Assembly (NCBI GenBank): GCA_016471375.1
Contig: WGLZ01000061.1
Location: forward strand, 1-40,786
Length of the DNA stretch: 40,786 nucleotides
Source of the DNA: Cyanobacteria bacterium RI_101
GTDB taxonomy: Bacteria; Cyanobacteriota; Cyanobacteriia; Cyanobacteriales; Microcystaceae
Reading direction: 5' to 3'
How positions within the stretch are numbered: the stretch's first letter is position 1; every line of letters begins with the position of its first letter. The notes beneath the pieces were generated by a model. It saw only the letters and a program-made list of their open reading frames with translations, searched no databases and was not told the DNA's origin. Both the position numbers and the translations under genes were made by a program. This document shows, piece by piece, positions 3,523-40,559 of this stretch.

Positions 3523-4238
3523 CGGTTCCGGCGCTGACGATTACCGACCTCTGGTTTTCCTATCCCGATCAAGCCGACGCGCTCCGGGGCGTAACCTTAC
3601 AAATTAACCCGGGGGAGCGGTGGGGAGTGATCGGCTCTAACGGCTCCGGCAAAACCACCTTATTTCTCCTAATTTGCGGCGTTCTAGCGCCGAAAGTCGG
3701 GGAGATTAAACTGTTTAATCAACGCGTTAAACCGGGCCAGTTTTATCCTGAAATCGGCCTGGTTTTCCAAAACCCCGACGACCAACTTTTCTGCCCTTCG
3801 GTCTGGGAAGATATCGCCTTCGCTCCCCAAAATTTAGGCCTCTCGGAAACGGAGATTCAAGAACGGGTCGCCTCGGCGCTAGCGATGACAGGAATAGAGG
3901 CTCTCGCCCAGCGCCCTCCCCATCACCTCTCCGGCGGCGAAAAACGGATGGCCGCCATCGCCGGGGTTCTAGCCATGAAGCCGAAAATGATTCTCTACGA
4001 CGAACCCAGCGCCAATCTGGATCACCGGGCCCGGCGCCGTTTGATTCAGTTCCTACAACGCTCTGCGGAAACCTTAATCATTTCCTCCCACGATCTAGAA
4101 TTGATCCTCGAAGTCTGCGACCGGACGGCGCTGTTGGATCGGGGAACAATCGCGGCGACCGGCGCTTGTCGTCAACTGTTGGGGGATCGGGCATTAATGG
4201 AGCGCTATGGGTTAGAAACGCCCTATTCTTTATCCTAA
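3519..4238 (+). CDS. cbiO: ECF transporter ATPase CbiO
   Basis: The ABC ATPase of 239 residues starts at the ATG that overlaps the cbiQ stop (ATGA). The frame is open further upstream but that part lies inside cbiQ. Visible motifs are Walker [10 protein letters not shown], a Q-loop in [10 protein letters not shown] (the PDDQ form typical of ECF ATPases), signature [13 protein letters not shown], Walker [13 protein letters not shown] and the H-loop SSHD. It is the only ATPase in the operon and presumably works as a homodimer. Its 3' end overlaps the convergent phosphofructokinase gene by 9 bases, leaving no room for an intergenic terminator. Confidence 0.93.
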
Positions 4239-5378
4239 GTAGATTCCTAAAGAGCGAGCGGTTTGCACCATAAAGCCCTCGGGATCGACGGGAAAAGCGC
4301 AAACGCCGTCGGCGTGGCATTTTTTAATAATTTTAATAATGGGTTTGAGGGGCGCGCTTTGGACTTGCCCCTCCCGCCAAACCACCACATGGTCAAATTC
4401 CCCTTTTTCAACCAGTTCCACGGCTTTGACGCCGTAGGCGGTAGCCAGCAAACGGTCGAGGGAAAGGGGCGTGCCGCTTCGTTGTAGATGTCCCAAGGTG
4501 GTGGCGCGGATATCCAGCGCCGTAATATCGCAGAAATCCGGGTCGTGATTCTGACAGAGATGTTCGGTTTGCTGGAGGATGGCCTCGGCTAAACAATCGC
4601 CGATGTATTTTTGGCTCTGATGATGGGAGTCCTTGACCCCTTCGGAAATAACAATCAAGGCGAAATGACGCCCAGAACTCCGCAGTTTCATCAACTGATG
4701 GCAACAGCCGTTGATCAGTTCCGGGGTTAAAGCGGGGGTAATCTCCGGGATCAGGATAATATCGGCGCCGCCGGCGATGCCCGCGTGGAGCGCCAGGTGT
4801 CCCGCGTCCCGCCCCATCACCTGGACGACAATGATACGCTCATGGCTGGCGGCGGTAAAGGTGAGGTCGTAGAGCGCCTGGGTGACGATTTCCACCGCGG
4901 TGGTAAAGCCCACGGCCCATTCGGTGAAGGGCACGTCGTTATCGATGGTCTTGGGCACAGCGACAATATTCCAGTTTCCCTTTTCCGCCAAACCGTAAAT
5001 AATATCCAAACTGCCGTCCCCCCCCACCACAATCAGGGCGTCGAGGTTCATGACCTCGTAACCTTTGAGAATGGTTTCGGCGATGGCGGGTTCTTCGGGA
5101 TGACCCTTACTGAGGGAGCCAAGGACGCTACCGCTGAGGAATTGCAAGACATCCAAACCCTTGAGCATCCCCGGTAGAGCGTAACCGTGTTTGGTTAACA
5201 GCAACTCGTCCGGTTGATATTTCCCCCTAGCGATTTCTATAAAGCCGTCGGTGCCGTAGGGAATACCGAAAACATCCCAGCCCTTAAGGCTAGAGGACTT
5301 TACCACCGCTCGAATAACGGCGTTCAGTCCCGGACAATCCCCGCCGCTGGTTAAAATCCCGACCCGTTTGGCGTCCAT
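4230..5378 (-). CDS. pfkA: 6-phosphofructokinase
   Basis: The 382-residue PfkA-family protein makes fructose 1,6-bisphosphate. Motifs: [12 protein letters not shown] (12-23), GGDGS (119-123), PKTIDND (142-148, with the catalytic Asp), and [10 protein letters not shown] (about 188-197). The Gly in GGDGS is typical of nucleotide-using enzymes, whereas PPi-dependent enzymes have GGDD. However, the Lys in PKTIDND is the residue typical of PPi enzymes, where E. coli has Gly. The phosphoryl donor is therefore best left open. An AGGAGA Shine-Dalgarno sequence precedes the ATG. The gene converges on cbiO with a 9-base overlap. Confidence 0.92.
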
Positions 5379-5417
5379 GGTTGAGTCTCCTGTTTTTTGA
5401 TTACATTTTTTTGGGTT

Positions 5418-5577
5418 TTATCCCCCTCAATCCCCCTTTGTAAGGGGCACTTTGAAGGGAACATCTCAGATTTGTCAGTTACTTTGTTTGCCCTCATCCC
5501 CCAGCCCCTTCTCCCAGAACGGGAGAAAGGGAGTCAAAGTCCCTCTCCCGCTTTGGGAGAGGGATTTAGGGTGAGGG
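5418..5577. repeat. Dispersed G/C-rich palindromic repeats
   Basis: Two families of cyanobacterial dispersed repeats lie between pfkA and the next gene. 5418-5458 holds a CCCCCTTTGTAAGGGG-like palindrome. 5491-5577 is a longer nested element with outer arms CCCTCA/TGAGGG and an inner perfect hairpin, CCCTCTCCC-GCTTT-GGGAGAGGG-like. A short open frame over the region is probably not a gene. Confidence 0.7.
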
Positions 5578-5631
5578 TCAGAGTTTAAAGCGTACTCGTT
5601 GCAACGTTGAGATGCTCCCGATGCGGTTTGA

Positions 5632-6663
<1,032 letters not shown>

Positions 6664-6698
6664 GGCGGATTCTCCTAGGGGTTGGGGATTGGGGGTTA

Positions 6699-6720
6699 GG
6701 GCTTCGACTACGCTCAGCCC
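6699..6720. repeat. Dispersed palindrome (CTTCGACTACGCTCAG family)
   Basis: A 22-base imperfect palindrome starts GGGCTTCGAC and ends CTCAGCCC. Its core (6702-6717) recurs at 9454, 28204, 34427 and 34453 (inverted), and in altered form inside nifJ at 10342. Confidence 0.75.
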
Positions 6721-6805
6721 TCGACGGGCGTTAAAATTAACGGTTTTGAACTGCTCAGGGAGCCGAAGCTTTCGATTGGTTTTTCAGACAAGCAAACGGC
6801 GCTAA

Positions 6806-6868
6806 ATCTGAAATCTGTCATCTGAAATCTGTCATCTGAAATCTGTTAACTGATAACTGTTAACTGAA
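6806..6868. repeat. Heptanucleotide tandem repeat, 9 units
   Basis: Nine 7-base units in a row alternate ATCTGAA/ATCTGTC and then drift to AACTGAT/AACTGTT/AACTGAA. The last units run into the radical SAM gene (6860-7477) and supply its stop codon and final Phe-Ser codons. Confidence 0.85.
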
Positions 6869-7477
6869 AAGCTGGCCTCGAAAACCGGTGAATAAGCGAG
6901 TTCCATCTTTGAGAATATGGATCTCCAGTTGGTCGCTGGCCCAGGTCAGTTGATCCGCCAGCGCCGGATTGAAGACGCGGACTCGCTGATTTTTGGAGGA
7001 CACTAAAGAGTCTGGGGAATGAATCGCCAGATGCTCTAGGTAGGGGCCGTCAATCAGTAAGTCTAATTCCGCCAACAGTTCCCCGGCGCCGGGGGGAGCT
7101 TGGGAACCCCGCAGTTCTTCGAGGGTAAAGCCGGTAAAGGACATGGCGGTTAATCCCTTGGCTTTCACTAAACGGGCCAGTTGAGCTAAAGCCGGCGCTT
7201 GCCAGAACGGTTCGCCCCCGGAAAAGGTAACGCCCTGATTGCGGGGATTGCCGAGGATTTTGTCGGCTAATTCTGGGACGGCGACCACTTGATTTTCCTC
7301 AAAAGACCAGGAGCCGGGGTTAAAACAGCCGGGACATTCCCGCAGACACCCCTGCACCCAGACCACCGCCCGAGCGCCGGGGCCGTTGACCTGGGATTCG
7401 TCCACATAGCCCATGATGTTGAGATAGCCGGGGGGCAAGTTGAGGGGCGGCGGCAGGTTGGCGTTAATGGTATTCAT
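6860..7477 (-). CDS. NrdG-like radical SAM activating protein
   Basis: The 205-residue protein has the radical SAM cluster motif CLRECPGC (CxxxCxxC, about residues 43-50) and a downstream GGE segment (VTFSGGEPFWQ) used for SAM binding. Its closest architecture is the small activases of glycyl radical enzymes (NrdG, PflA type), usually annotated as 4Fe-4S single-cluster proteins. No glycyl-radical partner (nrdD, pflB) is in the window, so the target is unknown. Its place downstream of nifJ and the DUF29 array on the same strand fits oxygen-sensitive chemistry. The C-terminus ends inside a heptad repeat array. Confidence 0.8.
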   Translation of the reverse strand: MNTINANLPPPLNLPPGYLNIMGYVDESQVNGPGARAVVWVQGCLRECPGCFNPGSWSFEENQVVAVPELADKILGNPRNQGVTFSGGEPFWQAPALAQLARLVKAKGLTAMSFTGFTLEELRGSQAPPGAGELLAELDLLIDGPYLEHLAIHSPDSLVSSKNQRVRVFNPALADQLTWASDQLEIHILKDGTRLFTGFRGQLFS

Positions 7478-9554: not shown

Positions 9555-13208
<3,654 letters not shown>

Positions 13209-13826
13209 GGTCTCCTCTCAGAGCTAGGAATAGCGGATAAAGAAGCAGGTATATTTACCTAAAAAATGTATTTAATTGGCGTTAAGGGCATTGCCCAAGG
13301 AATGTTAAGTTCAACCATCGCCGGGGTTAGGGGAAATTGAGCGACTAAAACAACTGAGAAGTTGCTTTAAGGCTTTCAGGCGCAACCCAAGGGAGATGGC
13401 GGAAAACTCGGGAGAATGGACAAAAAACGGAAGCGCCGAAGTTTGTCGAGACCCGCGTCTCGGGCGTTCTGGCGCAACGGGGAACGGGTTGGGTTAAGAA
13501 TTAGGAGCTTGGGGTTTCCTCAAATGGAAGGCGGCGCCGTTACTTCCATCTTTAGCGTAGTTTCCTGGGTTTGGATCCGTTTTGTTACAGCTTTGTAATC
13601 ATGTGAAGACATATTACGAAAATTGCCCCGGAGTAAACAGGGCAGTCCTAGCGTCGGATTACCGTCGGGACGAGCCTCCATGGCGTACGCCTTAGCTGAG
13701 CAGAAGTTACGCCAAGCGCGCGACTAGACAAACCGCGCCTGACTAAACCAAGAAGGCGACTTTCCCCCCTGCGGCAGATTTTTTCGACGCTTTCAGTCCT
13801 TTTATAAGCCAATGCGCTTGTTTAAA
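13209..13826. other. 618-base gene-free region upstream of nifJ
   Basis: This stretch lies between the nifJ start and the gmrSD stop. Short open frames here have no recognisable family or ribosome site. It holds a small hairpin at 13447-13462 (CGAGAC-CCGC-GTCTCG) and an inverted repeat at 13585-13598. I see no tRNA or known RNA. It must contain the nifJ promoter, but no clear box stands out. Confidence 0.6.
13585..13598. promoter_or_regulatory. Operator-like inverted repeat TTACA-N4-TGTAA
   Basis: A perfect 5-4-5 inverted repeat lies 377 bases upstream of nifJ, and no gene overlaps it. It resembles a dimeric repressor or activator site, but the binding protein is unknown. Confidence 0.3.
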
Positions 13827-15539
13827 TTAGCCTCCAAAGTTAATACGCCAGACACTAGCCGCAATTTTAGCCAACTGTTTTTGTCGAGACTCAATCTTCG
13901 CTTCATCCCAAATGTCGTAATGTTCGGCTATGGCTCGGGTAATCTGGAAGTCGCTTTGGGCGTAAACCGATTTTTTGGCAGGATAATCCAGGTTGCCGAT
14001 CTCTCGGTTACGGGCGGTTTCCAGCGGCGTCATATTGCCAAGACGGTAAATTAAGCGGTCTTGCTTCGCTTCGTCAATATCCGACCAAGCCGCCGATGGA
14101 TTTTCGGGCAGAATATGCTCCAAATTATAGGCGGCGCTTTCAAAGTCGAAGGCTTGACCCGATCTGTGTTTCTCGATGGTAAACAAAATATAACGAACGA
14201 CTTTTTTATTACGACTGTTGGCGGTGCGGAATTCTTTTTCCGTAAAGGCGTTTTTAAACTGCCCATCGTTGGGATAGACGGCTTCCAGCGCCGTCAAAAC
14301 GGCTTGATCCGAGCCGTAGGTTCCGTTGGAAACCTTAACCGCAACGTCGTTATAGAGGCGCTCTTGGTCATGGGTTTGCAGGTTACAAATCACGTTGTAG
14401 CGAAAGGAAATGACGGCGACAGCCTCAATAACTCGGGTAAAAGCGTCTCGATCCGAGTTGAAAAATTGCTCATGACAAGCGAGAAGCATGGCTAAGGGTT
14501 GACGCACGCTAAACATGAGAAGTTGTTGAAGGGCTTGTTTTTCTTGTCTATTCCAAAGAGGAGCAAGGGGGTCCCGGAGGGCGGCGTAAACCTCGGCGAG
14601 TTGATCTAGACTCCGCACTAAACTAAAGGCTTGTTCTCGACTAACGACCTGTCGTCGAATGGTTTTAAACAGGTCGGACTTGCGAGCTAATTTGTGACGA
14701 CTATTCCAAAAGACTCGCAGAAATTCGGGAAAACTTTCGCTCCCCAGCAACCCGACAATACGCTCCCAACGCTCTTCCAGCGCCCGAGTTTCGGTTTCGT
14801 GGGTTTCCGGGGCGCTAATTAAGGAGAATAGATAGTTTTTCAGCAGATCGGTGGCGGAAAGACGCACGCCTCTAGCGTTGAGGGTTTCAAAGACTTTAAA
14901 GGCGTTGAGTTCGTCGGTGACGGTTATAACGGTGAAAAAGAGTTTATCGACCAGGGAATCAATAAAAGCGGCAAAGTTTTGACCGCTGTTGGGTTGATTG
15001 CCGACTCGGGTTTTGAGCCGGTCTTTGAACCAAAGAAAGGCTTTTCTGAGTTGATGTTCGGAGGCGTTGAGACCTCGTTGCGGCAGGTGTTCTAGGGGGA
15101 TTAAATAGGTCTGATAAAAGCGGTCGTTATGGCGATTGAGTCGCAGTTTGGATTGGGCGATGAGGCTAACGGGATCGAGGTAGCCAATGTAACTGTTTTG
15201 AAGTTGTTCCTGACGGCGCCGGTTGTTGTCCGCGTCTAGCCCGGCGCTGATCAAATCTTTGAGGTGGCTGAGGCCGGCCAAGATCATAATGCTCAAGGTC
15301 GCGAGGCGCTGTTGACCGTCGATAATATCGAAGTGTTTGCTATCGGAAGATTGGAGAACGAGATAGCCCAGATAGTGAGCCGGTTCGCTGTCAGCTTCAA
15401 AGAGGGCGACGATGTCTTGCCAGAGATCGTCCCATTCGTCGTCGCCCCAGGAGTAGTCCCGCTGGAAAGGAGGAACGCGGTAGGCGAGACCGTTGGCCAG
15501 TAGTTGGCGCAAGGTGGCGTTAGTCGTGTTGAAGTTCAT
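13827..15539 (-). CDS. GmrSD-type DUF262-DUF1524 fused nuclease
   Basis: The 570-residue protein has an N-terminal DUF262 (ParB/Srx-like) domain with FQRDYSW (25-31) and the catalytic-type DGQQR (74-78), and a C-terminal DUF1524 HNH-like domain (about 470-560) with YNLEHILPENP, RLGNMTPLETARN and YPAKKSVYAQSDF. Fused GmrSD proteins are type IV restriction enzymes that cut DNA carrying modified, often glucosylated, cytosines; DUF262 binds or hydrolyses nucleotide and DUF1524 cuts. The frame opens at a GTG (15548), but family members begin MNFNTTN, so the ATG at 15539 is chosen. No methylase or partner is adjacent. A ~95% identical copy of its last ~200 bases lies at 17519-17724. Confidence 0.88.
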   Translation of the reverse strand: MNFNTTNATLRQLLANGLAYRVPPFQRDYSWGDDEWDDLWQDIVALFEADSEPAHYLGYLVLQSSDSKHFDIIDGQQRLATLSIMILAGLSHLKDLISAGLDADNNRRRQEQLQNSYIGYLDPVSLIAQSKLRLNRHNDRFYQTYLIPLEHLPQRGLNASEHQLRKAFLWFKDRLKTRVGNQPNSGQNFAAFIDSLVDKLFFTVITVTDELNAFKVFETLNARGVRLSATDLLKNYLFSLISAPETHETETRALEERWERIVGLLGSESFPEFLRVFWNSRHKLARKSDLFKTIRRQVVSREQAFSLVRSLDQLAEVYAALRDPLAPLWNRQEKQALQQLLMFSVRQPLAMLLACHEQFFNSDRDAFTRVIEAVAVISFRYNVICNLQTHDQERLYNDVAVKVSNGTYGSDQAVLTALEAVYPNDGQFKNAFTEKEFRTANSRNKKVVRYILFTIEKHRSGQAFDFESAAYNLEHILPENPSAAWSDIDEAKQDRLIYRLGNMTPLETARNREIGNLDYPAKKSVYAQSDFQITRAIAEHYDIWDEAKIESRQKQLAKIAASVWRINFGG

Positions 15540-15874
15540 GGTCGCCACAGATCGTAGAGGGTGATACAGGTTCCAGAAATTGTTAGCCTGCGCTCTGAGG
15601 GGTCTAGGTCTATGGTAGAGGGCTTTGAGGGGAATAGGGGAGACAGGGGGGAATGGGAGGAAGGGGAGGAGGGGGAGGAATGGGGGGCGTTGGCGGAGCG
15701 CAATGGGTTAAAACCTTGCTCTGGCTTGTGTCACGGCGCCGACTAAATCCAAGCAATATTTTTAAACTGTTTTAGCCCGGGGTACAAATAATATATTAAA
15801 ACGCTTGCGCAAAAAAACTGTGGCACTATCCTGGAAGACTACTCTACAATTCTCTTCTCTGAAGATGTACTAAA
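15540..15874. other. Gene-free gap with G-rich purine tract
   Basis: The 335 bases lie between the divergent gmrSD and PEP-CTERM genes. 15628-15687 is a purine tract with many G3-G6 runs on the + strand, a repeat style common in cyanobacteria and able to form G-quadruplexes. The rest probably holds both promoters. A short open frame over the tract is repeat-derived and is not called. Confidence 0.55.
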
Positions 15875-16513
15875 ATGCTTAACAAATACTTGCAGACCGG
15901 GATCGGCCTTGCGACCACCCTCACTCTGGCCGCCCTCGGCGCTAGCGGCGCTGAAGCGGCTAACTTAATTGATAATGGCGGATTTGAAACTGGTTCTTTT
16001 TCTAGCTGGAGTACCACTGGAAATCTAGAAGTTGTGGACACTGCAATTTTTGGTGGTAACGGATCTTTTAGTGCTAATTTTAATAGCGGAAATGAGATTC
16101 CCGATGGTATCTTATCCCAATCTTTTACCACTGTTTCAGGCCAAAGCTATCAGCTTCAGTTTATTTATGGAACTTTTTCCACCCAGTTTCCAGGGACTTC
16201 GCAAAGTATTTTTGTCGAACTCGATGGTCTGGGTGGCAATGGTTCTCTGTTAAGTACTTCTTCGAGTGATTTAGGAAGTGATCCAACTACATTCAATACT
16301 TTTCAATTTGATTTTATCGCAGATAGCGCAACAACTACGTTGCGTCTTAGTGACGATCCTGCTAACCCGACAATTTCCGTTGACTTTATTGTGGATGACA
16401 TTTCGGTTATTTCTACCACGACCCCTATTCCTGAACCCCTAACCCTCCTCGGCGCCAGCGCCGCTATCGCCTTCGGCGCCGGGTTTAAGCGTCGGAAATC
16501 AGGTAACAGTTAA
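15875..16513 (+). CDS. PEP-CTERM sorted extracellular protein
   Basis: The 212-residue product has an N-terminal signal peptide (cleavage near AEAAN). It has a lectin- or carbohydrate-binding-like beta domain opening NLIDNGGFETGSFSSWSTTG, with a repeated Ser/Thr-rich beta pattern. The C-terminal PEP-CTERM tripartite signal PIPEPLTLLGASAAIAFG is followed by the basic FKRRK. Such proteins are processed by an exosortase and linked to exopolysaccharide or biofilm. The last codons (Gly-Asn-Ser-stop) come from a heptanucleotide repeat array. Ends of the gene share the local GGCGCC-rich style while the middle is AT-richer. The gene sits within a defence island but has no evident defence role. Confidence 0.88.
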   Translation: MLNKYLQTGIGLATTLTLAALGASGAEAANLIDNGGFETGSFSSWSTTGNLEVVDTAIFGGNGSFSANFNSGNEIPDGILSQSFTTVSGQSYQLQFIYGTFSTQFPGTSQSIFVELDGLGGNGSLLSTSSSDLGSDPTTFNTFQFDFIADSATTTLRLSDDPANPTISVDFIVDDISVISTTTPIPEPLTLLGASAAIAFGAGFKRRKSGNS

Positions 16514-16545
16514 CAGATATCAGTCAACAGTTATCAGATAACACA
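16504..16545. repeat. Heptanucleotide tandem repeat, 6 units
   Basis: Six 7-base units of the TAACAGT/TAACAGA/TATCAGT type. The first unit encodes the last residues of the PEP-CTERM protein, and the start of the second supplies the TAA stop (16511-16513). Confidence 0.8.
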
Positions 16546-16619
16546 TTTTGTTTGGGGAGGGTGATTCGGTCATCTTCCCCGGTTTTGTCAGAACGGCGCA
16601 ACGGCAACACGCTAATGAG

Positions 16620-16826
16620 CTAAGCAAGACTTTGAGAGATTTCTTGGTAAGAAAATTCTTGTAAGCAGGCATTACGCTTAGCGTGCTCGATGGTCATGCT
16701 GATTATCTCACCTTGACAATCAACATCAATGTAAACATTTTCGCTAATTTCTTTTGTTTCAAAGATATCGCCTTCTCGAAATTCGATGAAAGCGGTGTCA
16801 GTGTCGCTAAAATACTTAACTTTCAT
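16620..16826 (-). CDS. DUF2283 family protein, probable antitoxin-like partner
   Basis: The 68-residue protein fits DUF2283: MKVKYFSDTDTAFIEFREG, then a VYIDVDCQGEIISMTIEHA segment. DUF2283 genes are usually found directly after a small DUF4258-like gene, and the pair is regarded as a candidate toxin-antitoxin module. Here it starts 5 bases after the stop of the upstream partner. No biochemical activity can be read from the sequence. Confidence 0.8.
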   Translation of the reverse strand: MKVKYFSDTDTAFIEFREGDIFETKEISENVYIDVDCQGEIISMTIEHAKRNACLQEFSYQEISQSLA

Positions 16827-16831
16827 TGCGC

Positions 16832-17065
16832 TTAACCTCTAAATGAACGATCAAAAAAGGCGTTATGTACGGTTTCTCCGTCCTCCAAAAGAATTACCCT
16901 TAAATACTTATCTTCTTCGGGTATTCTTGCCCATTTTCTAATTCTACCATCTGATTGAATCATGATTTTCTCCGGCTTTTGAATAACAGACTTAATCCAC
17001 TCGTCTTTAATTCCGACCCGATCTGGCCGCAATCTTGCCATCTCAAAGTATCGTGTTGTTTTCAT
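16832..17065 (-). CDS. DUF4258-like small protein, possible toxin
   Basis: The 77-residue protein has the form RYFEMARLRPDR, IKDEWIKSVIQKPEKI, DGRIRKWARI, KYLRVILLEDGETVHNAFFDR. This pattern recurs in small cyanobacterial proteins paired with DUF2283, and the beta-rich end resembles DUF4258/BrnT-type folds. Family assignment is from memory of pattern and is not certain. The gene begins 12 bases after the broken relE remnant and precedes DUF2283 by 5 bases, so the string probably forms one transcript with the Phd-like antitoxin upstream. Confidence 0.65.
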   Translation of the reverse strand: MKTTRYFEMARLRPDRVGIKDEWIKSVIQKPEKIMIQSDGRIRKWARIPEEDKYLRVILLEDGETVHNAFFDRSFRG

Positions 17066-17077
17066 TAGAATTTTATC

Positions 17078-17270
17078 TTAACTTATACCAAACCATCTTT
17101 CCTTAATCCTATAGATAAACTCCGTTCCTTTTAGCTTTTTACTACCTATCGGATAAGGATTTTGAGCTAAGATCTCAACTGATTCAATAATTTTAACAAG
17201 TACTTTTTTGTCAAGCTTTTTTAAACTCTTTTTTAGCAGAAGATTTCCATTCAACCTTATATAAGTCCAT
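17078..17270 (-). pseudogene. RelE/ParE-type toxin remnant, frameshifted
   Basis: The remnant starts at an ATG overlapping the antitoxin gene by 14 bases, the normal layout for a RelE toxin. It reads MDLYKVEWKSSAKKEFKK, then hits a stop in the first frame. Removing one base from the run of six A (six T at 17217-17222 on the + strand) restores LDKKVLVKIIESVEILAQNP, then PIGSKKLKGTEFIYRIK, a clear RelE pattern. The restored frame stops after about 63 residues, short of the usual 85-90, so the C-terminal catalytic strand is also lost. The toxin is almost certainly dead. Confidence 0.75.
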
Positions 17271-17457
17271 CTCTATTTAACTCAATAAGAAAATTTTCAT
17301 GGGAGATAGTCGATTCATCCTTTCTCTCAGCGACGGCGGCTAGATCTTCTAAATCTTCGATTAATTCTTCAAACTCAGATATTGGCAAAATAACTGAATG
17401 TTTTTCACCTTGCTGATTAATAACAAATTCTGGATGTAAATCGTTCAAGTTAATCAT
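17257..17457 (-). CDS. Phd/YefM-like antitoxin
   Basis: The 66-residue protein has an N-terminal beta-strand and a VILPISEFEELIEDLEDLAAVAERKDE helix typical of Phd/YefM-type or related RelB-like antitoxins. It carries the overlap with the relE remnant expected of a type II pair (14 bases). The antitoxin frame is intact although its toxin is broken, so it may survive as an orphan antitoxin or repressor. Confidence 0.75.
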   Translation of the reverse strand: MINLNDLHPEFVINQQGEKHSVILPISEFEELIEDLEDLAAVAERKDESTISHENFLIELNRDGLI

Positions 17458-17518
17458 TATGAACTCCTTGATTGATTGAAGTCGTAGTTTAAAGATAGCA
17501 TAAATTAAGATAAGCCTT

Positions 17519-17724
17519 AGCTTTCAAAGTTAATACTTCAAAACTGGTCGCAATTTTAGCCAACTGTCTTTGTCGAGACTCAATCTTCGCCGCATCCCAA
17601 ATGTCGTAATGTTCGGCTATGGCTCAGGTAATCTGGAAATCGCTTTGGGCGTAAACCGCTTTTTTCGCAGGATAATCCAGGTTGCCGCTCTCTCGGTTAC
17701 GGGCGGTTTCCAGCGGCGTCATAT
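17519..17724 (-). pseudogene. Duplicated 3' fragment of the gmrSD gene
   Basis: About 205 bases match the 3' end of the DUF262-DUF1524 gene (13827-14035) in the same orientation. Over the best 178 bases I count 8 mismatches, about 95% identity. The copy covers MTPLETARNRE through AEHYDIWD and KIESRQ. It has a nonsense change (CGA to TGA at the Arg of QITR) and a one-base length change near the end. The match stops abruptly next to the ATAT at 17721-17724. It is a relic of a second gmrSD gene or of a segmental duplication. Confidence 0.85.
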
Positions 17725-17767
17725 GGTTCTCCGGGGATCGGGCTATAAACTGTATTTTTTTATACAA

Positions 17768-18109
17768 TTACAACTTGGGCGGTAACGCAGAAAAGGTTAT
17801 CCGGTAAGGGGTCTTACCACAGTGGCGAGGTTCTCCTTTTTGCATTTGATTTTGGCAGGAGCAGAGCATATTCGAAAAGTCGAGAGGATCTACGCTAGGA
17901 TCGCTTTGGGGTTGAAAATGTTCAATATGACAATCTTCTGGGTCTAATCTTTGCTCACAGTAACAACAGATAAAACCTTGCTCTTGCATTAAGGCCTGTT
18001 TGATAGGCGGCTTATATAAATTAGCATAGTTAGGCTTCCAATTATCATTAATTTGATTTTTAAATTGAATAAGTTCCAGGGGTTCAGCTTGTTTTTGAAT
18101 ATATTTCAT
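17768..18109 (-). CDS. PtuB-like HNH nuclease, C-terminally truncated
   Basis: The 113-residue product has the N-terminal half of the TIGR02646/PtuB HNH family: FICCYCEQRL (Cys 48, 49, 51), HIEHFQPQ (H61-H64), LDFSNML (N80) and HCGK (H96-C97). Family members usually continue for another hundred or so residues after HCGxxK. Here the similarity ends at about residue 99, and an unrelated tail (TPYRITFSALPPKL) leads to a stop. The foreign side of this break is next to the gmrSD fragment. The HNH core residues survive, so residual activity is possible. The start overlaps the ATPase stop by 4 bases, which is standard for Septu pairs. Confidence 0.75.
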   Translation of the reverse strand: MKYIQKQAEPLELIQFKNQINDNWKPNYANLYKPPIKQALMQEQGFICCYCEQRLDPEDCHIEHFQPQSDPSVDPLDFSNMLCSCQNQMQKGEPRHCGKTPYRITFSALPPKL

Positions 18110-19386
18110 CGACCAATAATCTCCTGACGGCGAATGAGGACTTCAGCTTTAATAAGCTCGGGATCATTACCAATTTTAGTTCGCATTTTGACAATCGCCT
18201 GTTCGGCTTCTGGGAGTTGACGATTATTAATCAGTTGATAAATATGATGAAGATCTTGATTAACAGACTGGGGGCGAGTGGTTTCTAAACCCATGAGATC
18301 TTCTAAAATCCGCTCTACAGTTTTACCATAGGATTCCCTGGGTTTAGTGACTACAATGTTATCGAGGGTCTGGGTCAGGATAAAGATATTTTCAGGCTGA
18401 ATATGGGTAAGAACATGGGGAGAATGGGTAGAGATAATAAATTGGCAATTTGGAAAAACAGCCAAGAGTCTAGGAATAATCACTCTCTGCCATTGGGGAT
18501 GTAGATGAAGATCGATTTCATCAATTAAGACAATCCCCTCCCCCTCAAGCGGATTTCCCATTGAATTAGCGATGGCCAAGCGCCGAGCCAGATCGCTAAT
18601 TAAGGCAATTAGGCACTTTTCCCCGTCGGAAAGTTGATTCAATTTGAGAATTTGACCGTTTTTGGTCACTTCCATACGGAGAGGATGACGACGAACGGCG
18701 AGATTGTTAAAGGCTGGTAAAATTTGTCCTAAGGCCGTCCTGACCGCTTCCAAATGGGGATCGGGAAAGCAATAGTCATCGGGTTTAATTAACGCGTCTT
18801 GATATTTGCGATGTTCATTTTCGAGGTCTTCCCGTTCTCGAAACCATTCAAAAAAGCGCCGGAAGTCGGCGCCGCCCGTTAGGGCTTCGTCGTAGATGGA
18901 CAGTAAGTCAAACTGGTGTCTTTCGCGAATACCTAGAGGAATATCCAACACGGCCCGATTCACTGAGTAGTGAACAAATAAGGGTATGTTGACGGCGGGA
19001 GTTTCCAGGGCGGCAATAGCGCCTTGGATGGTTTTAGCGTAATCGCTGAGTTCTCCCAGGGCGCTGGGTCGCGGCGGAGGGCCATGGCCGGGACGGCTTT
19101 TGGCTAACCGCCAGGATAGTCTTTTGTCCTTGGCCAGATAGCTGAGTTCGATCATCGCCGCAGATTGTCCGTTGGCGATATCGTCTTCAGAAATATGTCT
19201 GCCCGAGGTTCCGGCTTGGCGAATCCGACTAATTGCCCAGGACAGCATCAGCGCGACGGCGTCGAGGATCGTGGACTTGCCGGCGCCGTTGACCCCGATC
19301 AAGACGTTGAGGCGCGGCTCCAACTGAAGGGAAAGGGCGCTGGCTCCCCGGAAGTGGGTTAGGGTCAGTGTCTCTATCTGGGCCAT
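18106..19386 (-). CDS. PtuA-like AAA ATPase of a Septu-type defence pair
   Basis: The 426-residue SMC/RecF-like ATPase has Walker A GVNGAGKSTILDAV (about 33-46), signature LSDGEKCLIALISDLARRL, Walker B IVLIDEIDLHLHPQWQ and a switch His in ISTHSPHVL. This is the architecture of PtuA in Septu anti-phage systems and of the ATPases paired with HNH proteins in retron systems. A C-terminal helical tail (EAEQAIVKMRTKIG) is present. PtuA normally assembles with PtuB and restrains its nuclease. The partner here is truncated, so the system may be inactive or altered. No reverse transcriptase is nearby. Confidence 0.85.
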   Translation of the reverse strand: MAQIETLTLTHFRGASALSLQLEPRLNVLIGVNGAGKSTILDAVALMLSWAISRIRQAGTSGRHISEDDIANGQSAAMIELSYLAKDKRLSWRLAKSRPGHGPPPRPSALGELSDYAKTIQGAIAALETPAVNIPLFVHYSVNRAVLDIPLGIRERHQFDLLSIYDEALTGGADFRRFFEWFREREDLENEHRKYQDALIKPDDYCFPDPHLEAVRTALGQILPAFNNLAVRRHPLRMEVTKNGQILKLNQLSDGEKCLIALISDLARRLAIANSMGNPLEGEGIVLIDEIDLHLHPQWQRVIIPRLLAVFPNCQFIISTHSPHVLTHIQPENIFILTQTLDNIVVTKPRESYGKTVERILEDLMGLETTRPQSVNQDLHHIYQLINNRQLPEAEQAIVKMRTKIGNDPELIKAEVLIRRQEIIGR

Positions 19387-19444
19387 GGGAAAATCAGATC
19401 ATCGTATATTTAATGTATAAACGTTAAGCGCCGCCATCGCCAAA
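19387..19444. promoter_or_regulatory. Divergent promoter between ptuA and mazE
   Basis: Only 58 bases separate the two starts. An AT-rich core at 19404-19420 (GTATATTTAATGTATAA) can give a -10 box in both directions and is near-palindromic. MazE-type antitoxins usually repress their own promoter, so control of the ptuA operon by MazEF is plausible but unproven. Confidence 0.4.
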
Positions 19445-19687
19445 ATGATCACTCAAAAAATCGCTAAATGGGGAAACTCCCTCGGTATTCGGCTCCCCCA
19501 ACCCATTATTCAGCAATTTGGATGGAAGGAGGGGGAACAAATTGCCATTACCGTGAAAGATCAACAAATTATCTTATCCCCGGCTCGACCTCGCTATAGC
19601 CTGGAAGAATTGCTCCGGGAGGCCCGGCCCGATAGCCAACACCCGGAGGCGGATTGGGGCGAGGCTAAAGGAGAAGAAGCATGGTAA
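19445..19687 (+). CDS. mazE: MazE-type AbrB-fold antitoxin
   Basis: The 80-residue protein has an N-terminal SpoVT/AbrB swapped-hairpin domain (QKIAKWGNSLGIRLPQPII, EGEQIAITVKDQQIILSP). An acidic flexible C-terminus would bind and neutralise MazF. It overlaps the toxin gene by 7 bases. It is expected to bind its own promoter as a dimer. Confidence 0.9.
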   Translation: MITQKIAKWGNSLGIRLPQPIIQQFGWKEGEQIAITVKDQQIILSPARPRYSLEELLREARPDSQHPEADWGEAKGEEAW

Positions 19688-20028
19688 AACTCAACGGCGT
19701 CGTTCCTCGACGGGGCGACATTATTGCTTTGGAGCTAAACCCCCGTACGGGAAGCGAACAGTCCGGTTATCGGCCGGCGCTGGTGATTTCCCCAGAAAAC
19801 TATAATCGCCTTTCCCGTCTCACCCTTATTTGCCCCATCACCAGCCGAGAAAAGGGTTGGCCCTTTGAAGTTAAACTGCCGCCAAACCTCAACACCCAAG
19901 GGGTTATTCTGGCGGATCAGGTTCGCTCCGTTGACTGCCAAGCAAGACAGGCCAAAATTGTGGAAGCGGTTCCCCCGGATATTTTGACGGAAGTTCTAGC
20001 TAGGTTAGAAACCCTAATCAGCTTTTAA
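19681..20028 (+). CDS. mazF: MazF/PemK-type endoribonuclease toxin
   Basis: The 115-residue toxin has PRRGDIIALELNPRTGSEQSGYRPALVIS (the basic/Thr loop and RPALVIS strand), TLICPITS and GVILADQVRSVD, all standard for MazF. It cuts RNA at short sequences; the specificity cannot be predicted. It appears intact, unlike the RelE remnant nearby. Its stop overlaps the end of convergent murG by 4 bases, marking the right edge of the island. Confidence 0.92.
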   Translation: MVKLNGVVPRRGDIIALELNPRTGSEQSGYRPALVISPENYNRLSRLTLICPITSREKGWPFEVKLPPNLNTQGVILADQVRSVDCQARQAKIVEAVPPDILTEVLARLETLISF

Positions 20029-38294: not shown

Positions 38295-40559
38295 ATGGCT
38301 ACTTTTACAGTTACTCAAACCACGGATAATGGCTTAGGCAACACGGCGGGAACCCTCAGTTACGCTATTTTCCAAGCCAACCAACTAGCGGGAGATGACG
38401 TTATTGTTTTAAATAACGATGTCCGTTTAACCGGCGTTACCGTTATTCCCAGCTTTATTGATAGCAATATTACCCTAGAGGGAAATGGCTTCAGTCTCAG
38501 CGGCGATGTGAATAACAACGGGATTAATGATACCGGGGATACCCGTCCTTTATTTATTAAATCCGGCGCTGTTTCAATTTCTAACCTAACAATTACCAAC
38601 GGTCGCGCCGAAGGGGGAGGGGGTTGCGGAGGCGGCGCCGGTATGGGAGGCGGTCTTTTTATCTATGACGGTAGCGTCAGTTTAAATAATGTCGGATTTT
38701 TAAACAATGCGGCTATCGGCGGTAATGGTGGCGGGTGGGGCTACTCAGGCGGAGGTATGGGGTTTATCCCAGATGGTAGCAGTAATAACTGGGGAGTGTA
38801 TGGCTATGATGGTTCTGAAGGCAGTGGCGGTTATATTTACTTTGATGAATATGGGGATCCTTATGGGGATTTCGCAGGAGATGGCAGTCCGGGAGGTAAT
38901 GGTGGTTTTGGGGCTGGTGGCGGAATTGGTGGGGCTGGTGGATATAGCATTGTATATGGATATAAGCCTCGGTTTAATAGTGAAAGTTCTTTAACTTTTT
39001 CGAGCTTTGTCCATCATCAAAGCATCGGAGAGAGTAGCGGTGGCAATAACGGAATCACTACTCAGTGTTCGTCAGAAAGCGGTGCCGGCGGCCCGGGAGG
39101 AAATGGCGGATTTGGCGGCGGCGGCGGCGGTGATGGAGACTACAGTGCGAGCGGAGGTTCGGGCGGTTATGGCGGAGGGGATGGTGGTAGTGGAGGCGCC
39201 GGGATGGGGGGCGGTCTCTTTATTCGTAGCGGTTCCCTGAACTTAAATAACGCGACCTTTGCCGATAACAGCGCCGTGGGCGGACTCGGCTCTAGTTCTC
39301 TCTTGAACGGTAAAGGGTTAGGGGCCGGGCTGTTTATTATGCAGTCCTTGACTAATTCCAACGGCAATAATCAAGGGATGCCGACTGTTTTACCCACGGT
39401 GACCGCTAACGGTTTAGTGATTTTTTCCGGGAACAGCGCCGCGGATGATAGCGGAACAGCCACGGATAATGACGATATTTGGGGAACTATTATCACTTCC
39501 AGTAACGCCATCATGGGCACGGAAGGGGACGACGTTTTAGTCGGAACCAGCGCCGATGATTTAATGATGGGTTTGGGCGGTAATGATCGCCTAGACGGGA
39601 AAGTCGGCGCTGATGAAATGCGGGGCGGTCTGGGAAATGACACTTACACGGTGAACGACCCTGGTGATCTAGTGGTGGAAAACCTGAATGAAGGCGCCGA
39701 TACGGTTAAGGCCTTTATCAGTTACATTTTGCCCGATAATGTTGAAAATTTAACCCTATTGGGAACCGCTAACCTTGATGGAACGGGTAATTCTCTGAAT
39801 AACAAACTCACCGGCAATAACGGTGATAATGTTCTCACTGGCGGGGAAGGTAACGACACCCTCGACGGAAAAGCGGGGAATGATCTGCTTCTGGGCGGTC
39901 TGGGAGATGACATTTATCTCTATCGTCACCCCGGCTCTGTCATTGTCGAAAATCCGAATGAAGGTATGGATACCGTCAAAGCCTATTTCTCCTACGGTTT
40001 AGGGGAAAACTTAGAAAATCTGACCCTGATGGGCACCGATGATTTAGACGGTATCGGCAACACTTTAGACAATAAACTTACCGGCAATAGCGGCGATAAC
40101 CTCCTTAATGGCGGCGCCGGCGCCGATATTTTGACCGGGAAAGGCGGCGCGGATATCTTTATCTTTAACTTCGGTCAGTCCTTAGTAAACGCTTCCGATT
40201 GGATTAAAGATTTCACCCTTGGGGAAGATAAAATCGATCTTCTAACTCAGGGCGGCTGGAATGTTAACGCGCCGGTTAGTTTGACACGAGCTGCGGATAA
40301 CAAAGCCGCCACTTTAACGGAAGTGATGACTCAAGTCTTTACCGACGCTAACGGCGCCGTCGAGGGGAACCAAGCCCTAGGGATTAACAGCGCCGCTTTG
40401 GTGAAAGTGACGACTCCGGGCATTCGGGGAACCTATCTGGTTGTCAATAACACCAACGCTCTCTTCCAAGCGGATAAAGACCTGTTGATCAATATCACAG
40501 GTTTAAAAGGAGGATTACCCGACTTCGGCGCGGTTCCTGTTGACAGTTTCTTTGTCTAA
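38295..40559 (+). CDS. Glycine-rich RTX calcium-binding secreted protein
   Basis: The 754-residue protein opens MATFTVTQTTDNGLGNTAGT, a CSLREA-like/parallel beta-helix start. A Gly-rich region (about 105-320) contains two copies of a block GAGMGGGLFIxxGSxxLNN. From about residue 407 to 650, RTX nonapeptides of the GGxGxDxLxG type bind Ca2+ (GGNDRLDGKVGAD, GGEGNDTLDGKAGND, GGAGADILTGKGGAD). An M10-serralysin-like C-terminus follows (DWIKDFTLGEDKIDLL). No N-terminal signal is seen, as expected for type I secretion, but exporter genes (HlyB/D-like) are not in the window. GAGG lies before the ATG. Confidence 0.9.
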   Translation: MATFTVTQTTDNGLGNTAGTLSYAIFQANQLAGDDVIVLNNDVRLTGVTVIPSFIDSNITLEGNGFSLSGDVNNNGINDTGDTRPLFIKSGAVSISNLTITNGRAEGGGGCGGGAGMGGGLFIYDGSVSLNNVGFLNNAAIGGNGGGWGYSGGGMGFIPDGSSNNWGVYGYDGSEGSGGYIYFDEYGDPYGDFAGDGSPGGNGGFGAGGGIGGAGGYSIVYGYKPRFNSESSLTFSSFVHHQSIGESSGGNNGITTQCSSESGAGGPGGNGGFGGGGGGDGDYSASGGSGGYGGGDGGSGGAGMGGGLFIRSGSLNLNNATFADNSAVGGLGSSSLLNGKGLGAGLFIMQSLTNSNGNNQGMPTVLPTVTANGLVIFSGNSAADDSGTATDNDDIWGTIITSSNAIMGTEGDDVLVGTSADDLMMGLGGNDRLDGKVGADEMRGGLGNDTYTVNDPGDLVVENLNEGADTVKAFISYILPDNVENLTLLGTANLDGTGNSLNNKLTGNNGDNVLTGGEGNDTLDGKAGNDLLLGGLGDDIYLYRHPGSVIVENPNEGMDTVKAYFSYGLGENLENLTLMGTDDLDGIGNTLDNKLTGNSGDNLLNGGAGADILTGKGGADIFIFNFGQSLVNASDWIKDFTLGEDKIDLLTQGGWNVNAPVSLTRAADNKAATLTEVMTQVFTDANGAVEGNQALGINSAALVKVTTPGIRGTYLVVNNTNALFQADKDLLINITGLKGGLPDFGAVPVDSFFV

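Follow-up and report, generated by a model that had tools for sequence, protein, structure and literature searches.

The junction between a shortened ptuB gene and a fragment of gmrSD in Cyanobacteria bacterium RI_101 is very probably the scar of a deletion, marked by a MITE, in a degraded ptuA-ptuB-gmrSD operon, with an intact second gmrSD gene located elsewhere. The window, i.e. the whole stretch of 40,786 nucleotides analysed here, is contig C43 of a 3.75-Mb genome (G000) assembled in 102 contigs. Two odd broken genes are in this way reduced to one explained event, in which a MITE relic marks the cut in a three-gene defence operon. Gene loss linked to MITEs is already known, and the scar represents explained gene decay and not a new system. 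The case was not recognised in a limited literature search on Septu with DUF262 and on MITE deletions in cyanobacteria or defence islands. The following features are relevant to the locus:

18106..19386, minus strand: ptuA, AAA ATPase of Septu; 426 aa, apparently whole; PADLOC PtuA PDLC00271, E 2.5e-152
17768..18109, minus strand: ptuB' open reading frame, 113 aa; codons 1-99 derive from ptuB (HNH core), codons 100-113 plus the stop codon from the MITE
17725..17814, minus strand: truncated MITE; consensus 44-132 of 132, right end intact, left 43 bp gone
17517..17724, minus strand: gmrSD' pseudogene fragment; last ~70 codons, one nonsense codon, one 1-base deletion
15551..15745, minus strand: DUF433 gene remnant (5' part), adjoining the intact gmrSD at its start codon
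13827..15548, minus strand: intact gmrSD (DUF262-DUF1524); 573 aa, Pfam GmrSD_N and GmrSD_C

The ptuB reading frame ends in MITE DNA

Residues 3-424 of PtuA align with positions 2-417 of the 421 of the PDLC00271 profile, so that the PtuA expected of a Septu system is whole, with a score of 336 bits against NF041760 (under the cut-off of 500). PtuB matches its two best NCBIfam models up to residue 99 (profile positions 1-101 of 218 and 6-78 of 144) and the best PADLOC PtuB models up to residue 99-100 (profile up to 97-102 of 156-215). With 76 bits against NF041761, for which the cut-off is 150, it is not the full-length PtuB expected of Septu. The loss of the family match described in the initial annotation was thus confirmed at residue 99-100 of 113, and its position was corrected from about 17812 to about 17813-17815, where the ptuB homology ends. 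K99 (17815-17813) is the last ptuB codon, the bases AG at the join fit both the ptuB and the MITE sequence (a 2-bp overlap), and residues 100-113 together with the stop codon are encoded by MITE DNA. The 14-residue tail, TPYRITFSALPPKL, had been called unrelated to PtuB, which holds; the 89-90 bases between the two genes are, however, not filler but a repeated mobile element.

The element belongs to an ISL3-related MITE family

A search with positions 17400-17830 revealed that the bases between the two genes recur elsewhere in the same genome, and the junction alone matched nine other genomic places at E <1e-7, which exceeds chance. When the copies were aligned with their flanks, the element was delimited to 132-133 bp with imperfect 19-bp inverted ends. 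Besides the copy in the window, the genome contains 13 distinct full-length copies, 12 of them found by the end pattern and one on C91. An exact 8-bp target duplication is present in 11 of these 13 and absent at C13:29784 and C38. A further copy on C77, near base 6,000, is divergent in its left part. The window copy matches consensus positions 44-132 in 71/90 columns (79%; E 2e-18 in a 201-base subject). On the right it is complete and abuts the gmrSD' fragment at 17724/17725, and on the left it lacks 43 bp; a left end was sought elsewhere in the window with up to 3 mismatches and not found. Since it is only 79% like the consensus, the window copy appears to be old or to belong to a divergent subfamily.

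An 8-bp target duplication is typical of ISL3 elements. The first 141 bases of contigs C47 and C102 are identical and code for the C-terminal end of an ISL3 transposase (PF01610 over its cut-off, profile 213-240 of 240); on both contigs the transposase C-terminus is followed by its stop codon and then by the 21-bp MITE end. In total, 17 occurrences of this end were counted in the genome (15 exact, one with 1 mismatch, one with 2), against none of the reversed control sequence. A whole IS was not found in the draft genome, and we infer that the identical contig starts are a collapsed multi-copy IS. With its imperfect 19-bp inverted ends, its 8-bp target duplication and an end that is common to the ISL3 transposase terminus, the family resembles the bacterial MITEs derived from ISL3-family insertion sequences; the window copy differs from them in being truncated and fused into a reading frame.

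Two of the places with full-length copies are notable. At C38:14292-14423 (L038, L061, L198) a copy without target duplication lies between a cut XisH, ending at profile position 94 of 134, and a cut XisI, starting at position 60 of 110, so that this site looks like a similar head-to-tail junction of two neighbouring genes. At C13:28340-29784 (L093) two copies in the same orientation are located about 1.3 kb apart, with the 8-bp duplication at only one of them.

The gmrSD fragment and the intact gmrSD gene

The duplicate of the gmrSD 3' end that had been noted between 17519 and 17724 was found again. In a DNA alignment, 13854-14035 and 17543-17724 are 95% identical over 182 ungapped nucleotides, and an additional 20-nucleotide repeat block is located at 13827 and 17517 (90% identical). 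Aligned with gaps to the gmrSD tail, 17517-17724 is identical at 193 of 208 aligned positions. The homology stops abruptly at 17724, and the intact gmrSD indeed forms a direct repeat with the fragment, at a spacing of 3689-3690. The reported nonsense codon is one in-frame TGA, which breaks the gmrSD frame of the fragment, and one base is in addition absent near its 3' end in the gapped alignment. The fragment has changed faster: 11 derived changes fall in it and two in the intact copy, with two unassignable, a pattern that fits a relic next to a gene under constraint. By codon position the 11 changes are distributed as 3, 3 and 5.

The intact GmrSD scores 126.5 bits for GmrSD_N and 104.4 bits for GmrSD_C, both over the Pfam cut-off, and is labelled HEC-06 / Orf5 by PADLOC. 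GmrSD-type activity is the cleavage of modified (glucosylated hmC) DNA, as given in the abstract of PMC4619093. Upstream of this gene, 15551-15745 matches C37:38992-39214 in three DNA blocks of 86, 97 and 89% identity. The C37 gene is a DUF433 gene by PF04255, and the window remnant was assigned by its DNA match to it. The match covers the upstream part and the 5' end of the DUF433 gene and stops at the gmrSD start codon, for which reason the intact gmrSD copy also appears to sit at a scar. An exact MITE/ISL3 end is found just upstream of the DUF433 gene on C37, at 38899-38919 (L151, L188), and may be linked to this second scar. A search upstream of the intact gmrSD revealed no remnant of ptuB, the region matching the DUF433 gene instead. 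A tandem duplication of the whole operon was also considered and is unsupported, as no homology of the two gmrSD copies was seen beyond their stop codons.

ptuA, ptuB and gmrSD form an operon in relatives

In Synechocystis salina LEGE 00031 (G004; L088, L101), a congener that places the genome of the window probably in the Synechocystis group, ptuA (420 aa) and ptuB (208 aa) share 4 bases, and gmrSD follows ptuB at a distance of 2 bases. The gene order is the same in a second congener, G003 (L087), again with a PtuB of 208 aa, so that a full ptuB is present in both. Both operons have the gene order and strand of the window. Identities of the window proteins to those of S. salina and G003 are 62% and 65% for PtuA, 71% and 75% for PtuB residues 1-99, and 84% and 85% for GmrSD, respectively. 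Unlike the window, both possess the longer PtuB and a whole, adjacent gmrSD, and the MITE was not found in them, nor in any other of the four congeners at E<=0.1. Compared with S. salina, the window is missing about 318 nucleotides of ptuB and 1514 nucleotides of gmrSD. As to a second full gmrSD in relatives, G004 has one gene, at 84%, and G003 has one at 85% and a further match at 27%. The two other congeners, G001 and G002, gave no match to PtuB, nor to PtuA (E<=1e-20).

With a profile of 19 GmrSD proteins, 71 loci (29 + 2 + 40) were surveyed, the short stretches limiting the count. gmrSD directly follows ptuB in G003 (L002, L087), G004 (L003, L088, L101), a gammaproteobacterial locus (L107) and Lamprobacter (L117). 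In a Chlorobiaceae locus (L122) gmrSD flanks ptuA on the opposite side, where the contig starts, as two open stretches split by an in-frame stop. The three genes therefore occur as a unit in Synechocystis, and their order is the same on two gammaproteobacterial contigs. Because ptuB and gmrSD are neighbours in the two congeners, the fragment in the window is most simply read as the tail of the operon's own gmrSD.

Origin of the scar

The tight ptuA-ptuB-gmrSD operon kept by two congeners argues for one deletion within a single operon. The initial annotation had proposed a deletion that joined two broken genes, which our data support; its suggestion that two separate defence modules were joined is not supported, as ptuB and gmrSD are neighbours in one operon in these congeners. 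We propose that the ancestral locus would have been a three-gene operon of the S. salina type. The first event would most likely have been the insertion of the non-autonomous 132-bp MITE into gmrSD near codon 504, with mobilisation by an ISL3-family element. A single deletion of about 1.83 kb of operon sequence, starting inside the MITE with the loss of its left 43 bp, would then have removed the 5' part of gmrSD together with the 3' half of ptuB, joining codon 99 of ptuB to MITE DNA at the 2-bp overlap. The gmrSD tail would then have decayed, with the second intact gmrSD 3.7 kb away behind the broken DUF433 gene.

Instead of being cut by the deletion, the MITE could itself have made the junction, by a transposase-driven adjacent deletion or by recombination between MITE copies in ptuB and gmrSD, its left 43 bp having been lost separately. 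The full-length copies without target duplication at C13:29784 and C38, the latter between truncated xisH and xisI, suggest that MITE-linked rearrangements occur in this genome; the missing left end, however, needs an extra event in this scenario, and one deletion into the MITE is simpler. We consider it possible but rather unlikely. A very improbable origin, in spite of the direct repeat at 3.7 kb spacing, is homologous recombination between the gmrSD repeats or a fusion of separate defence modules: recombination of the repeats should have produced a hybrid gmrSD and not a 3' fragment abutting a MITE end, the natural neighbour of the fragment is ptuB, the 5' junction of the intact copy differs, and the boundary at 17725 is that of the MITE.

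Truncation of PtuB and the Septu pair

PtuB was compared with 69 other PtuB loci, comprising 29 relatives and 40 named contigs with some genomes in both sets. A length of 113 aa is absent among them, and so is the tail from the C-termini examined. Since none of these loci has that length or tail, the 113-aa PtuB is very probably a truncation and not a natural short form, in line with the truncation initially claimed and with the length of PtuB in both congeners. That it could be a natural short form with a conserved tail is extremely improbable: residues 1-99 do retain the HNH core and 27/28 invariant columns, but no such form or similar tail occurs in the 69 loci, the tail is MITE DNA, and it is predicted to be disordered (pLDDT <50 for residues 101-113).

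Invariant columns were counted over 30 other PtuB rows, excluding the window. The single exception among the 28 columns of residues 1-99 is W16, replaced by F; another 12 invariant columns are either part of the lost half or altered in the tail. The retained columns would also fit a recent cut or a protein that is still used. The AlphaFold2 model of S. salina PtuB (pLDDT 83.1, pTM 0.80; weak stretch at 89-104) has five helices in the half that the window PtuB is without, and that of the 113-aa protein reached a pLDDT of 79.7 and a pTM of 0.69. In Foldseek searches the full S. salina model matched solved PtuB chains of Retron Ec78 / Septu structures (9l7p_H 1.3e-8, 8eea_G 3.7e-8). The 113-aa model gave weaker scores than the full one: it matched the PtuB chain 9e8z_B (1.7e-4) and, over 97-98 columns, the 9l7p (9l7p_H 8.2e-4) and 8eea (1.1e-2) chains. 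According to these predictions the window PtuB keeps the HNH core and is without the helical C-terminal half.

In retron-Eco7, growth arrest is caused by PtuA and PtuB together and by neither protein alone, as stated in an excerpt of PMC11555353, and Septu immunity is abolished by mutation of the Walker motifs of PtuA or of the H-N-H motif of PtuB (PMC13096335, excerpt). The Septu pair of the window is probably inactive. For annotators, this calls for caution: a PtuA next to a PtuB-like reading frame is here unlikely to form a functional Septu.

Alterations of PtuB compared with those of PtuA

Both genes were scored as whole at 61 of the 69 other loci, among them L018 (G044), whose PtuB does contain a lesion, and at five a broken ptuB accompanies a whole ptuA; the remaining three, all without ptuA in the stretch, have ptuB whole (two) or broken (one). 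Among 30 loci selected by PtuA (L153-L182, window included), PtuB is altered in eight: the window, an internal deletion in G141, one in-frame stop each in G048, G044 and G008, a frameshift in G033, and a differing end of about 20 residues in G049 and G042. In the last two the difference may represent a variant end instead of damage. None of the 30 PtuA matches of this set contains an internal stop, and in the converse set of 30 loci, selected by PtuB (L001-L030, again with the window), no locus has a damaged PtuA. Fisher's test gave 0.024 (6 vs 0) and 0.0046 (8 vs 0), values to be read with the overlap of the sets, the non-independence of relatives and the draft state of the assemblies in mind. 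Counter to the pattern, three lower-ranked PtuA matches contain stops (G039:C176, G040 and G006), and the PtuB of G040 has one as well.

Further broken ptuB genes beside a whole ptuA were found in Lamprobacter (cut), a Chlorobiaceae MAG (internal deletion) and a Parabeggiatoa MAG (two in-frame stops). Lamprobacter modestohalophilus DSM 25653 (L117) resembles the window in its whole PtuA, its cut PtuB (153 aa) and a GmrSD of the same family (76% identical), encoded next door to ptuB. Unlike in the window, the ptuB cut, as read from the sequence of L117 at 5001-7168, ends where gmrSD begins, and gmrSD stays open; the ptuB 3' end seems to have been lost here independently, while gmrSD was retained. 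As PtuA and GmrSD both remain in the window, with GmrSD nearby, and in Lamprobacter, with GmrSD next door, one might speculate that Septu operons repeatedly lose PtuB and keep an open PtuA for a PtuB-independent role, possibly with the linked GmrSD, a reading that we regard as improbable. The more frequent alteration of PtuB is testable at scale.

Further features of the locus

An Rfam scan of 13000-20000 gave no match at the gathering score. The DUF2283 gene region at 16430-16754 is 91% identical to C101:5535-5859, its second genomic copy. A RelB-like antitoxin gene is located at 17257-17457, and the downstream reading frame at 17080-17269 (minus strand), which may be RelE-like, is interrupted by a stop, with the remainder in another frame. 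ptuA is adjoined by a MazE-MazF-like pair at 19445-20028 (plus strand), so that toxin-antitoxin genes are found on both sides of the broken operon.
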